Origin: Afipia sp.
GTDB lineage: Bacteria > Pseudomonadota > Alphaproteobacteria > Rhizobiales > Xanthobacteraceae
DNA: 64,000 bases
NCBI GenBank assembly: GCA_024508675.1
Contig: JANINQ010000001.1
Coordinates: 623,162 to 687,161, forward strand
Direction: 5' to 3'
The notes under the pieces are model-generated. The model was not told where the DNA came from and did not search any database. It saw only the letters and a list, made by a program, of their open reading frames with translations. Both the position numbers and the translations under genes were made by a program. Position 1 is the first letter of the stretch; every line of letters begins with the position of its first letter. Shown piece by piece: positions 9,533 through 41,540 of the stretch.

Positions 9533-10381
9533 TTAGGCCGCTTTGGCGGCGGCGTCACCCGCCGCGCGCGGTCCGCGCCGCCATGCCGCGGCGATGAAGG
9601 CGAGGCCGGCAATGATCATCGGCACCGAGAGGATCATGCCCATGGTCAATCCGCCCCAGAGGAATCCGAGCTGCGGATCGGGCTCGCGGAAAAATTCACT
9701 GGTGATGCGCGCGACGCCGTAGAGCGCGGCGAACGCGCCGATGATCAGGCCGGGGCGCTTGAGCGCGCCGCCCCGGATCAGCAGCGCGAGGACGATGAAC
9801 AGCACGATGCCTTCGAGCCCGGCTTCGTAAAGCTGGCTCGGATGGCGCGGCAGCGGTCCGCCGTTGGGGAACACCATTCGCCATGGCACGCTCGCGTCGG
9901 CGTGGCGACCCCACAACTCGCTGTTGATGAAGTTTGCCAGCCGCCCGAGCAGAAGGCCGATCGGTCCGACCGCGCAAGTGACGTCGCCGAGCGACAGCAC
10001 CGAGATGTTGCGCTTCCAGCCGAACAGCAGCACGGCGATCACACAGCCCATGAAGCCGCCGTGGAACGACATGCCGCCGGTCCACAGCTTGAAGATTTCG
10101 GCGGGATGCTGCGCGAAGAAGCTGAGGTTGTAGAACAGCACATAGCCGGTGCGGCCGCCGAGAATGATGCCGAGCGTGACCCACAGGATGAAGTCATCGA
10201 AATCTGTCACCGTGAACGGCGGCGTGCCTCCCCACAGTTTCTCGCTGTGGATGATCCTGCGGGCGTAGAGCCAGCCCAGCACGATGCCGCCGATATAGGC
10301 CAGCGCATACCAGCGGATCGCGATCGGCCCGATGGCGATGGCAACGGGGTCGAATACGGGGAATGCGATGGTCAGAAACAT
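9533..10381 (-). CDS. lgt: Prolipoprotein diacylglyceryl transferase
   Basis: An inner-membrane enzyme that attaches diacylglycerol from phosphatidylglycerol to the lipobox cysteine of prolipoproteins. The 282-residue protein has about seven membrane segments, the catalytic HGGFMG motif, the signature [14 protein letters not shown] and the [12 protein letters not shown] motif near the C-terminus, all at family positions. The first gene of a minus-strand operon with the MidA-like gene and pgeF. A paired-hairpin repeat begins only 22 bp upstream of its start codon, so any promoter must lie within or beyond that element. Confidence 0.96.
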
Positions 10382-10403
10382 GAGCTGGCGGTGTCCGGCG
10401 GAT

Positions 10404-10569
10404 TAGTGGAGTGGATTTGACATTCGCGACCCGCAGGCAGCGAGTCCGCAACGCGAATGTCAAATCCGAAACTCCACTAGAAAGCTATATTTACCAGTGG
10501 TCCTTTAATTCTAACATTCGCAGAAAGGTCTGCTGCAGCGGGGTGCGAATGTTAGAATTGGACCACTAG
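10404..10569. repeat. Composite paired-hairpin element, copy A
   Basis: Two adjacent hairpins separated by an AT-rich spacer of about 16 nt. Hairpin 1 (10404-10479): outer stem TAGTGGAGT/ACTCCACTA, a GAA bulge on the 3' arm, inner stem GGATTTGACATTCGCG with an exact complement, 23-nt loop. Hairpin 2 (10496-10567): outer stem AGTGGTCC/GGACCACT, a TTT bulge on the 5' arm, inner 16-bp stem AATTCTAACATTCGCA with an exact complement, 21-nt loop. It lies between the divergent lgt and ubiK-like genes. A second copy with the same architecture is at 16455-16619. Confidence 0.9.
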
Positions 10570-10720
10570 CGAATCCCTGCGTCGCAAGAATTAACCCCGG
10601 TTTGCGACAAGAATGCGCGTTTCACAACTCACGAGTGTCTTACATCTTGCATCCGGGCAGGGCCATCACCATTGTTTCGTTGTCCTAACTGCGGTATTCG
10701 GCCTCTTCCGGAGTGTGATG

Positions 10721-10984
10721 ATGACCCAGACCAGCAACCGTTTCTTCGACGAGATCGCGCGCCTGATGAACGACGCCGCGGGCGCCGCCTCCGGCGTCAA
10801 GCGCGAGGTGGAAACCGTCGTGCGCAGCCAGGCCGAGCGCATCCTGCGCGACCTCGATCTCGTCAAGCGCGAGGAGTTCGAGGCGGTGAAGGACATGGCT
10901 CGTCTCGCCCGCGAGGAGAACGAGGCGCTGAAGGCGCGCCTCGATGCGCTGGAGAAAAAGGCCGGTCCGGTCGCCGAGACCTGA
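10721..10984 (+). CDS. Accessory factor UbiK family protein
   Basis: An 87-residue protein (MTQTSNRFFDEIARLMNDAAGAASGVKREV...) of the UbiK/YqiC family (formerly DUF526). It has an N-terminal amphipathic part followed by a coiled coil (about 45-80: LVKREEFEAVKDMARLAREENEALKARLDALE). In enterobacteria UbiK trimerises, binds lipids and supports ubiquinone synthesis with UbiJ. GGAG at 10710-10713 is 7 nt from the ATG at 10721; ATG 10718 and GTG 10715 are alternatives one or two codons upstream. The gene is monocistronic as far as can be seen and is divergent from lgt. Confidence 0.85.
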   Translation: MTQTSNRFFDEIARLMNDAAGAASGVKREVETVVRSQAERILRDLDLVKREEFEAVKDMARLAREENEALKARLDALEKKAGPVAET

Positions 10985-15475: not shown

Positions 15476-15680
15476 CGATACAGGCCGGAACAAGGCGGGC
15501 GCTAATAGTGCTGTCCAAGGGCGGCAGACGGGGACGGAATCGGGGCGGAGGGGCGTCTTCAAGCGGTTTCAGGACGCCAACAAAATCGCCTGCTTTCCTT
15601 GTGTTTCGGGTGCTTTGGGGCTAAGAACCCGCCACGTCTGCGGCCCCCGCACCCCTGGAGGCTTGCTGCGGCGTGAAACC

Positions 15681-15697
15681 GGGCCGCTTTGCGGCCC
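15681..15697 (+). promoter_or_regulatory. Leader hairpin before rplY
   Basis: GGGCCGC and GCGGCCC pair around a TTT loop, followed by TTCACTTTT, 29 bp before the rplY start. It resembles a weak intrinsic terminator or attenuator. A role in L25 autoregulation is possible but unsupported beyond position. Confidence 0.35.
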
Positions 15698-15726
15698 TTC
15701 ACTTTTACATCTTAAGGAACTCAACA

Positions 15727-16440
15727 ATGGCGACCGTCAAGGAATTGAAGGCGACCGCTCGTCCGAAGGCCGGCAAGGGGGCCGCCCGGGCAGAACGTCG
15801 CGCCGGCCGTGTCCCGGCCGTGATCTATGGTGACAATCAGGCCCCGCTGACCATCTCGCTCGACGACAAGGCTGCGCGTCAGGCGATTTTCGCCGGCCAC
15901 TTCCTCACTACGATTTTCAGCATCGAACTGGATGGCAAGAAGCACCGCGTGATTCCGCGCGACTTCTCCCTCGATCCGGTCAAGGACTTCCCGCTGCATG
16001 TCGATTTCCTGCGTCTCGGCGTCGGCGCCAAGATCCGTGTCAGCGTTCCGCTGCATGTCACCGGTGCTGAAGTTTCGCCGGGCGTGAAGCGTGGCGGCAC
16101 GGTCAACATCGTCAACCATACCGTCGAACTGGAAGCGGATGTCGAGCACATTCCGCAGTTCATCGAGGTCGACGTCTCCAAGCTCGAAATCAACAACTCG
16201 GTTCACCTCAGCGACGTTCAGTTGCCGCAGGGCGTGAAGGCTCTTCGCGACGACCAGACGCTGGTGACCGTCGTGCCGCCATCGGGTTACGGCGAAGAAG
16301 CCAAGGCGGCCGGTGCCGAAGGCGCCGCGCCTGCGGCTGGTGCTGCTCCCGCAGCCGGTGCTGCCGCTCCTGCTGCTGGCGCCAAGGCTCCGGCTGCTGC
16401 CGCCGCCAAGGCCCCTGCCGGCGGCGACAAGAAGAAGTAA
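15727..16440 (+). CDS. rplY: 50S ribosomal protein L25/general stress protein Ctc
   Basis: L25 binds 5S rRNA in the large subunit. The 237-residue protein is the long Ctc form: the N-terminal 5S-binding domain (ELKATARPKAGKGAARAERRAGRVPAVIYG) is followed by a C-terminal beta domain (DFPLHVDFLRLG, VKRGGTVNIV) and a low-complexity Ala/Pro/Gly tail ending in lysines (about 200-237). An ATG preceded by AAGGA defines the start. pth and ychF follow, an order common in bacteria, but here a 165-bp paired-hairpin element separates rplY from pth and may uncouple their transcripts. Confidence 0.96.
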   Translation: MATVKELKATARPKAGKGAARAERRAGRVPAVIYGDNQAPLTISLDDKAARQAIFAGHFLTTIFSIELDGKKHRVIPRDFSLDPVKDFPLHVDFLRLGVGAKIRVSVPLHVTGAEVSPGVKRGGTVNIVNHTVELEADVEHIPQFIEVDVSKLEINNSVHLSDVQLPQGVKALRDDQTLVTVVPPSGYGEEAKAAGAEGAAPAAGAAPAAGAAAPAAGAKAPAAAAAKAPAGGDKKK

Positions 16441-16454
16441 GGAGCCGCGGGTAC

Positions 16455-16619
16455 CTGGTGGAGTAGATTTGACATTCGCACCCTCGCTTGCGTGGGTTCG
16501 TAACGCGAATGTCAAATCTGAAACTCCACCAGAATTATTATTCGCTGGTGTCCTTTCGAATCCGAAGTTCGTTCGGAAGATGCTGCGAGCTCAAACGAAC
16601 TTCGGATTCGGGACACTAG
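16455..16619. repeat. Composite paired-hairpin element, copy B
   Basis: Same architecture as the element at 10404. Hairpin 1 (16455-16532): outer stem CTGGTGGAGT/ACTCCACCAG, GAA bulge on the 3' arm, inner stem AGATTTGACATTCGC with exact complement. Hairpin 2 (16545-16619): outer stem CTGGTGTCC/GGACACTAG with one G-T pair, TTT bulge on the 5' arm, inner 17-bp stem starting CGAATCCGAAGTTCG with exact complement. Spacer 12 nt, AT-rich. It ends 4 nt before the pth start codon. Confidence 0.9.
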
Positions 16620-41453: not shown

Positions 41454-41540
41454 CGTCATTGCGAGGAGCGTAAGCGACGAAGCAATCCAGTTTTGTATGT
41501 TTGCTAAAAGGTGGATTGCTTCGCTTCGCTCGCAATGACG
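41454..41540. repeat. Palindromic repeat (CGTCATTGCGAG family)
   Basis: An 87-bp unit with complementary ends CGTCATTGCGAG... and ...CTCGCAATGACG and inner segments AAGCAATCCA/TGGATTGCTT. A second member is at 56060-56138. Confidence 0.8.

Follow-up and report, generated by a model that had tools for sequence, protein, structure and literature searches.

A mobile twin-hairpin repeat with CTAG feet in Afipia and other Alphaproteobacteria

Two composite palindromic elements lie in the 64,000-nucleotide stretch of Afipia sp. DNA analysed here (hereafter the window), and the family to which they belong is a real, widespread and mobile twin-hairpin element. Mobility is shown by the presence or absence of copies at corresponding sites of related genomes, by a polarised insertion into CCAG and by the exact nesting of one composite in the CTAG of another. 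It is probably best described as a REPIN- or MITE-like mobile element, non-autonomous and about 161-168 bp long, which would be moved in trans by a candidate transposase and placed at CTAG-like targets.

Anatomy of the composites and their subfamilies

Both window composites consist of two hairpin units, convergent around an AT-rich spacer of about 13 nt, with a GAA bulge in the first hairpin and a TTT bulge in the second. The sequence-only reading had described the hairpins, their bulges and the spacer, and the start of the first copy is corrected here to 10403. The neighbours of composite 1 are the divergent lgt and BMFP genes, and those of composite 2 are the L25 gene and pth. Unit types (A, B, B', C, C' and D) are labels assigned in the present analysis, and unit scores are those of the covariance model.

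9533..10381, minus strand: lgt, prolipoprotein diacylglyceryl transferase, left of composite 1 (PF01790, 1.4e-72)
10403..10480, plus strand: composite 1, unit 1, type A (76.2 bits); arms TTAGTGGAGT and GGATTTGACATTCGC, loop of 25 nt, GAA bulge at 10468-10470 on the right arm
10481..10493: composite 1, AT-rich spacer, AAAGCTATATTTA
10494..10569, minus strand: composite 1, unit 2, type B, inverted (82 bits); TTT bulge at 10504-10506 on the left arm, outer end CTAG at 10566-10569
10613..10984, plus strand: BMFP reading frame, right of composite 1 (PF04380, 3.8e-27)
15673..16440, plus strand: ribosomal protein L25/TL5 gene, left of composite 2 (PF14693, 1.2e-26; PF01386, 6.8e-24)
16455..16532, plus strand: composite 2, unit 1, type A (70.5 bits); CTGGTGGAGT and AGATTTGACATTCGC, GAA bulge at 16520-16522
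16533..16544: composite 2, AT-rich spacer, AATTATTATTCG
16545..16619, minus strand: composite 2, unit 2, type C, inverted (74.3 bits); TTT bulge at 16554-16556, outer end CTAG at 16616-16619, 4 nt ahead of the pth start codon
16624..17235, plus strand: pth, peptidyl-tRNA hydrolase, right of composite 2 (PF01195, 5.1e-62)

In composite 1, the stem of hairpin 1 comprises 10+15 bp and the inner stem of hairpin 2 comprises 16 bp; pairing is imperfect at the outermost positions, with T.G as the terminal pair and CCAG/CTAG at the feet of hairpin 2. Folded as single-stranded DNA, the two composites gave z values of -11.1 and -12.4, and none of 200 dinucleotide shuffles was equally stable. A custom sequence-blind detector (stem, 2-4-nt bulge, stem) found the four composite units in the 64-kb window and no other match. 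Applied to a 291-kb stretch of a related genome, it recovered 17 of the 20 known units together with one other palindrome, whereas a single letter-by-letter shuffle of the stretch yielded none. In the window, CTAG occurs about 12 times less often than base composition predicts (18 vs. 220 occurrences), three of the 18 being within the two composites, and 400 kb of G065 hold 192 against 1424 expected. A different palindrome, with GCGAAGCAATCCA / TGGATTGCTTCGC letters, was seen at window positions 41471-41533 and 56076, and resembles the CGTC-type REP of alphaproteobacteria.

Further units were collected with a covariance model (R1), built from 22 units (alignment A1) that were partly picked by shape, and with BLAST. 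At least 44 units scored above 50 bits in the 4.4-Mb genome of the window (G000), where 150 of 1942 candidates were scored and one further match of 28.9 bits was left out; they form 21 composites, all of them convergent, and two single units. The latter (C1:416298-416373 and C5:227103-227178) have no listed partner above 50 bits. These 21 composites, together with the wide distribution described below, exclude that the family is limited to the two window copies, and the sequence-only view of a repeated composite resembling a BIME or a MITE is supported.

The unit follows a common plan: its left arm is 25 nt long, its loop spans about 20-25 nt and often has GCAGC-like letters, and its 28-nt right arm bears, 9-10 nt from the outer end, a 3-nt bulge (AAA, GAA and others) facing the spacer. 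Units are 74-79 nt long in A1, with CTAG-like letters at both feet, and composites measure 161-168 bp (41 composites). CTAG itself occupies both feet in 285 of 396 distinct units, a set in which TG/CA beside the feet and at least seven of nine outer pairs were required. Among the 22 units of A1, 98.9% of the 526 cells are paired, and changes on both sides of a pair greatly outnumber those on one side (113 vs. 5).

Units no more than 60 nt apart were taken as neighbours and, as loci overlap, distinct sequences were counted: 152 of the 160 pairs are convergent with a spacer, three are --, one is ++, and four are -+ pairs sharing a CTAG. In the 41 composites measured, the partners are unlike, A being found with B, C with B', and D with C'. 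The combination at pth is A with C in all seven genomes that have a copy there; types B and C each occur in several copies. Compared as terminal inverted repeats, the two ends have CTAGTG and TTCG-like inner letters in common, yet are of different subtypes. The inner 10 nt of the two arms are identical in none of the 152 convergent composites, and the inner-arm letters common to partner units (6.27 of 10) are only slightly above those of random partners (shuffled mean 5.87, maximum 6.26 of 500).

These subfamilies bear on what had been noticed between the two window copies. The paired changes in hairpin 1 were confirmed (TAGTGG/CCACTA to TGGTGG/CCACCA, and GGATTTG/CAAATCC to AGATTTG/CAAATCT), and TGCTGC was found in both hairpin-2 loops as described. 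The contrasting inner stems of hairpin 2 are also real, but do not represent a change in place: copy 1 carries type B and copy 2 type C, and hairpin 2 differs because these are two subfamilies, unlike before insertion.

Distribution and mobility

Matches to R1 were found in at least 120 of 248 genomes of the same family (32 of 47 genera), in at least 45 of 297 genomes of the order (27 of 123 genera, and 16 families besides its own) and in at least 14 of 240 genomes of the class, the genome of the window being counted each time and the other 13 class carriers belonging to 10 families; at most 19, 16 and 20 candidates per genome, respectively, were scored. In one genome of another family (G600), the matches shown measured just 57 nt and may represent a shorter type of unit. 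Carriers among the pattern-scan matches listed include Afipia, Bradyrhizobium, Nitrobacter, Rhodopseudomonas, Pseudolabrys, Rhodoplanes and Aestuariivirga, and the same listed matches contain a type C arm on a contig filed as a Chloroflexi metagenome bin (L335). With a composite as query, plasmids of Aminobacter, Bradyrhizobium, Martelella, Rhizobium and Ochrobactrum were matched at 70-76% identity (six records). The arm pattern of the unit was also seen in eleven contigs filed in IMG/VR (L388-L398).

The exact ends of the element are given by near-identical copies in unrelated flanks in three genomes (G003, G049 and G033). Gain and loss could be followed along about 290 kb of synteny between G205, with 10 composites, and G065, with 11, whose aligned blocks are mostly 90-98% identical: five sites are common, five are filled in G205 only and six in G065 only. 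At four of the 11 unshared sites, the partner holds exactly 4 nt (CCAG, CCCT, CAAG and CCAG); at the remaining seven, where flanks have diverged or remnants persist, the values are 1, 1, 1, 3, 6, 21 and -6 nt.

The best polarised insertion is at position 212185 of G065, where the element is flanked by CCAG and CTAG, and G205, G025, G188 and G000 all have CCAG; the copy inserted there has CTGG as its inner tetranucleotide. Other clean sites are position 197803 of G188, where G025 has CTAG and remnants of 34-35 nt are found in G205 and G065, and the lgt/BMFP site filled in G065, with TTAT in G025 and CTAA in G000; the G205 copy has an extra CCAG, and with its edges as the reference the gap at this site is 0. 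Further site comparisons gave gaps of 0-36 nt. Altogether, a clean 4-nt empty site was found at six of the 17 sites with a readable partner. One of the six (G205 176084, filled in G188 and CCCT in G065) is better read as a loss, so some of the presence/absence polymorphism reflects deletion; the remnants kept by G205 and G065 at the G188 197803 site likewise belong with the losses.

Exact nesting was seen in L097 and L066: the inner CTAG of a B/A composite is occupied by a D/C' composite, which has CTAG at either edge. The two cases may be separate insertions or copies of a single nested element that was itself moved. The 4-nt CTAG-like letters expected on both sides from target duplication are exact in this nested case and unequal or not readable elsewhere. 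The flanking tetranucleotides are often unlike each other and unlike the empty site (CCAG..CTAG vs. CCAG; CTAG..CTAG vs. CCAG), a pattern that simple duplication of the target would explain only if mutations followed. Judged from the site comparisons and the neighbour pairs, the mobile entity is the doublet of inverted units, as in REPINs.

Insertions are mostly intergenic. Genes were predicted with a home-made, codon-based finder for 26 composites, which represent about 20 distinct sites, those shared being counted more than once. The overlap with predicted genes was less than 30 nt for 23 of the composites, and the other three overlapped a predicted frame by more. The genes around the 23 intergenic composites are in tandem in 15 cases, divergent in eight and convergent in none.

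These observations suggest a model in which the two unlike hairpin units are the left and right ends of the element, facing each other across the short AT-rich spacer. A transposase supplied in trans would recognise both ends, possibly as DNA hairpins through the stem, the AAA-type bulge and the conserved loop, and would insert the element, mostly in intergenic DNA, at 4-nt targets of the CTAG type (CTAG, CCAG, YTAR), leaving a CTAG-like tetranucleotide on each side. The arms would stay complementary through mutual repair, or because only complementary copies move. Effects on neighbours, such as pth at a distance of 4 nt, would be secondary.

Candidate mobilisers and similar known repeats

Candidate movers were sought among Y1/RAYT and IS481 proteins. 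A match to Y1/RAYT proteins (PF01797) was not found in 13 of 20 chosen carriers, 14 of the 20 belonging to the genus of the window; the 13 include G000 and the insertion-polymorphic G205 and G065. The same search gave a match in 5 of 14 named genomes used as control, E. coli included. The seven carriers with a Y1 match comprise five of the six non-Afipia genomes, among them those with the freshest copies (G003, G049 and G033). Units were present within the locus of one of 17 Y1 loci, that of an IS200-like gene with hairpins of its own. As to orientation, 16 family-III copies of G065 lie one way and 15 the other, and no replication-strand bias was detected in these 31 copies (of 40 matches, nine partial ones being left out), which were set by hand against sampled GC skew. 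The lack of a Y1 match in most of the carriers sampled, the single Y1 locus with units beside it and the absence of strand bias favour a different trans-acting transposase. This mover is more likely to be a DDE-type enzyme than one acting on single strands, and a DDE-type enzyme with a 4-nt stagger is our guess, for which we would claim slightly less than an even chance.

The alternative that survives best, although we consider it clearly less probable than the trans-mobilised element proposed above, is an ordinary MITE, that is, a deletion derivative of an unseen DDE insertion sequence of the IS481, IS5 or IS630 kind, with a CTAG/YTAR target and TG..CA ends. Members of these three groups have CTAG/YTAR targets. 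The present elements are short, lack coding capacity and occur in many copies, as MITEs do; moreover, TG..CA ends are found inside the CTAG feet, some sites show a 4-nt CTAG-like target, and the balanced orientation in G065 fits. However, no IS481 match was found in G000, and only one of 10 other carriers passed the family cut-off, the matches being mostly to general integrase cores; IS481 was rejected as the mover on these grounds. A strict TA target, as for IS630, fails at the CCAG site, and long bulged hairpins are not something that MITE ends need to be. Furthermore, the loci scanned showed no recognisable gene with ends of this kind on either side. CTAGTG../..CACTAG ends 600-3500 nt apart gave seven pairs from four sources, and no autonomous copy was recognised among those inspected (in L192, L073 and A205, the L098 pair being left out): the pairs of L192 and L073 enclose ordinary genes or IS insertions between separate elements, and those of A205 join two known composites. 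Similarly, 427 loci contained 11 pairs of units 60-4000 nt apart, none of which was recognised as autonomous. In L192 (G043), an IS3-like gene (matched by the IS481 model) and a transposase-like frame lie between two units, one of them interrupted at its CTAG foot.

The feet of a unit covary. Outer and inner tetranucleotides are exactly complementary in 339 of the 396 units, and 54 units have complementary feet other than CTAG, against a mean of 3.1 and a maximum of 9 in 1000 shuffles. A plain DDE transposon would not need such covariation, which counts against it and leaves room for a guide-pairing mechanism. Transposition of IS200/IS605 elements relies on pairing between guide and cleavage-site sequences; their ends are hairpins too, and the tetranucleotide at the foot pairs with an internal one, much as the outer and inner tetranucleotides do here. 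The present family differs from them in that 13 of 20 carriers lack a Y1 match and that copies in G065 are without replication-strand bias. The covarying feet, and the copy in CCAG that carries an inner CTGG, would support a new class of mobile DNA across Alphaproteobacteria, with bulged-hairpin ends, an enzyme of an undescribed kind and a target chosen by base pairing; the inner tetranucleotide of a unit would recognise the outer one, and insertion would occur next to a tetranucleotide able to pair with the copy inside the element. We nevertheless regard this class as unlikely. One site shared by G205 and G065 has CTAG/CTAG in the former and CTGG/CCAG in the latter, and concerted foot changes of this type at already shared sites (sets s3 and s4) speak for arm-to-arm repair over target pairing.

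REPINs or BIMEs proper, in which a REP doublet is moved by a RAYT (Y1) transposase, are close in plan, and yet we hold them to be quite improbable here. The family has inverted, unlike, bulged palindromes with a foot tetranucleotide, mostly intergenic, in nested and a few direct arrays, which approaches the organisation set out in PMC3116915, where a pair of inverted palindromes separated by a short spacer makes up one non-autonomous, intergenic mobile unit, and arrays occur; the Y1 matches in seven genomes, including those with the freshest copies, also agree with it. Against it stand the 13 carriers lacking PF01797 and the rarity of units at Y1 loci, whereas REPs flank RAYT genes in PMC3116915. 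Size and tag differ as well, as REPs have 20-40 bp and a GTAG or CGTC tag at one end in PMC3733652, and the present units have about 75 bp, each being a long hairpin with palindromic CTAG at both feet. A RAYT as mover, which the sequence-only reading had suggested looking for, was thus judged unlikely, though less firmly so for the genomes that do bear Y1, among them the three with fresh copies. One IS200-like gene, in L252 of G033, has GC-rich hairpins on both sides and lies about 100 nt from a composite (1187-1351, 1456-1887). BIME ends of unlike types exist in E. coli, and the literature treats REPINs as parasitic on RAYT transposases.

Other repeats of related bacteria show partial likeness. 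The GTAG/CGTC REP superfamilies are present in Bradyrhizobium and Rhodopseudomonas and include CGTC repeats without a linked transposase gene, but they differ in size and tag, and the available part of their description contains no CTAG-initial word (PMC3733652). Br-REP1 and Br-REP2 of Bradyrhizobium are palindromic intergenic repeats of the same bacterial family, and Br-REP2 is described as belonging to a larger repeat that also occurs in Afipia, with data not shown there (PMC5082802). When the printed consensus sequences were compared with 41 composites, Br-REP1 matched at 12 of 20 letters, against 12 in one shuffle of each, and Br-REP2 at 23 of 40, against 21; judged on these letters, the match appears no better than shuffled sequence for Br-REP1 and hardly better for Br-REP2. 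RIME1/RIME2, Bru-RS1/2 and CIR, which are intergenic alphaproteobacterial repeats, palindromic or long, with many copies, are possible relatives; Bru-RS, at 103-105 bp, is of unlike length. A CTAG-footed twin-hairpin repeat was not found in the available, mostly open-access literature, including the accessible parts of PMC3733652, PMC2573895, PMC5082802, PMC2873474, PMC1273637, PMC10969869, PMC2267715 and PMC3116915.

Change after insertion and meaning of the fold

Copies at corresponding sites allowed the fate of the hairpins after insertion to be followed. The pth copy is present in seven of 28 genus members and absent from 21. In the comparison of six pth copies with G000, 45 of 291 readable pairs had changed; among unpaired columns, which include a few letters of the flanks and in which a gap was scored as a difference, the figure was 155 of 426. 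Of the changed pairs, 13 had changed on both sides and were still Watson-Crick, 17 were G-U and 15 were mismatches. Seven comparisons between closer copies, at six sites, gave 16 changed pairs of 328 and 45 changed unpaired columns of 499; three of these pairs had changed on both sides, seven were G-U and six were mismatches. In these alignments, arms are conserved relative to loops, with some concerted changes that extend to the feet, but old copies do decay. The G-U pairs were discarded as a mark of selection on RNA, as composites lie in both orientations and the pairs are not decisive.

Loss of complementarity in the arms would have spoken against selection for the fold, which had been proposed from the sequence alone. 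Complementarity is kept by paired changes among subfamilies, but old orthologous copies include the 15 mismatches mentioned. The proposed selection therefore stands in part: it agrees with the paired changes, whereas the largest difference cited for it is a subfamily swap and complementarity is partly lost at old sites. Paired changes could equally be explained by arms repairing each other as DNA.

Selection for the fold of a structured RNA or of a cis-regulatory element is another explanation that we hold to be quite improbable, since the slower change of stems than of loops and spacers at orthologous sites, partly by paired changes, and the pth copy common to seven genus members are set against copies that are gained and lost, the lack of that pth copy in the other 21, broken pairs in several old copies, an Rfam scan of the window with no family at gathering score, and no constant gene context. 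Regarding the latter, the 25 commonest Pfam families among 102 proteins encoded beside 71 composites (loci L269-L427, 38 sides skipped) had at most three members each, with no recurrent neighbour family and no transposase among them.

A twin-palindrome family that is polymorphic in genomes without a Y1 match suggests that another mobiliser of hairpin-ended DNA operates in Alphaproteobacteria. The family also offers a test of whether selection, arm-to-arm repair or fresh copying keeps the two arms of long palindromes identical over evolution, and it supplies insertions beside genes such as pth and lgt.
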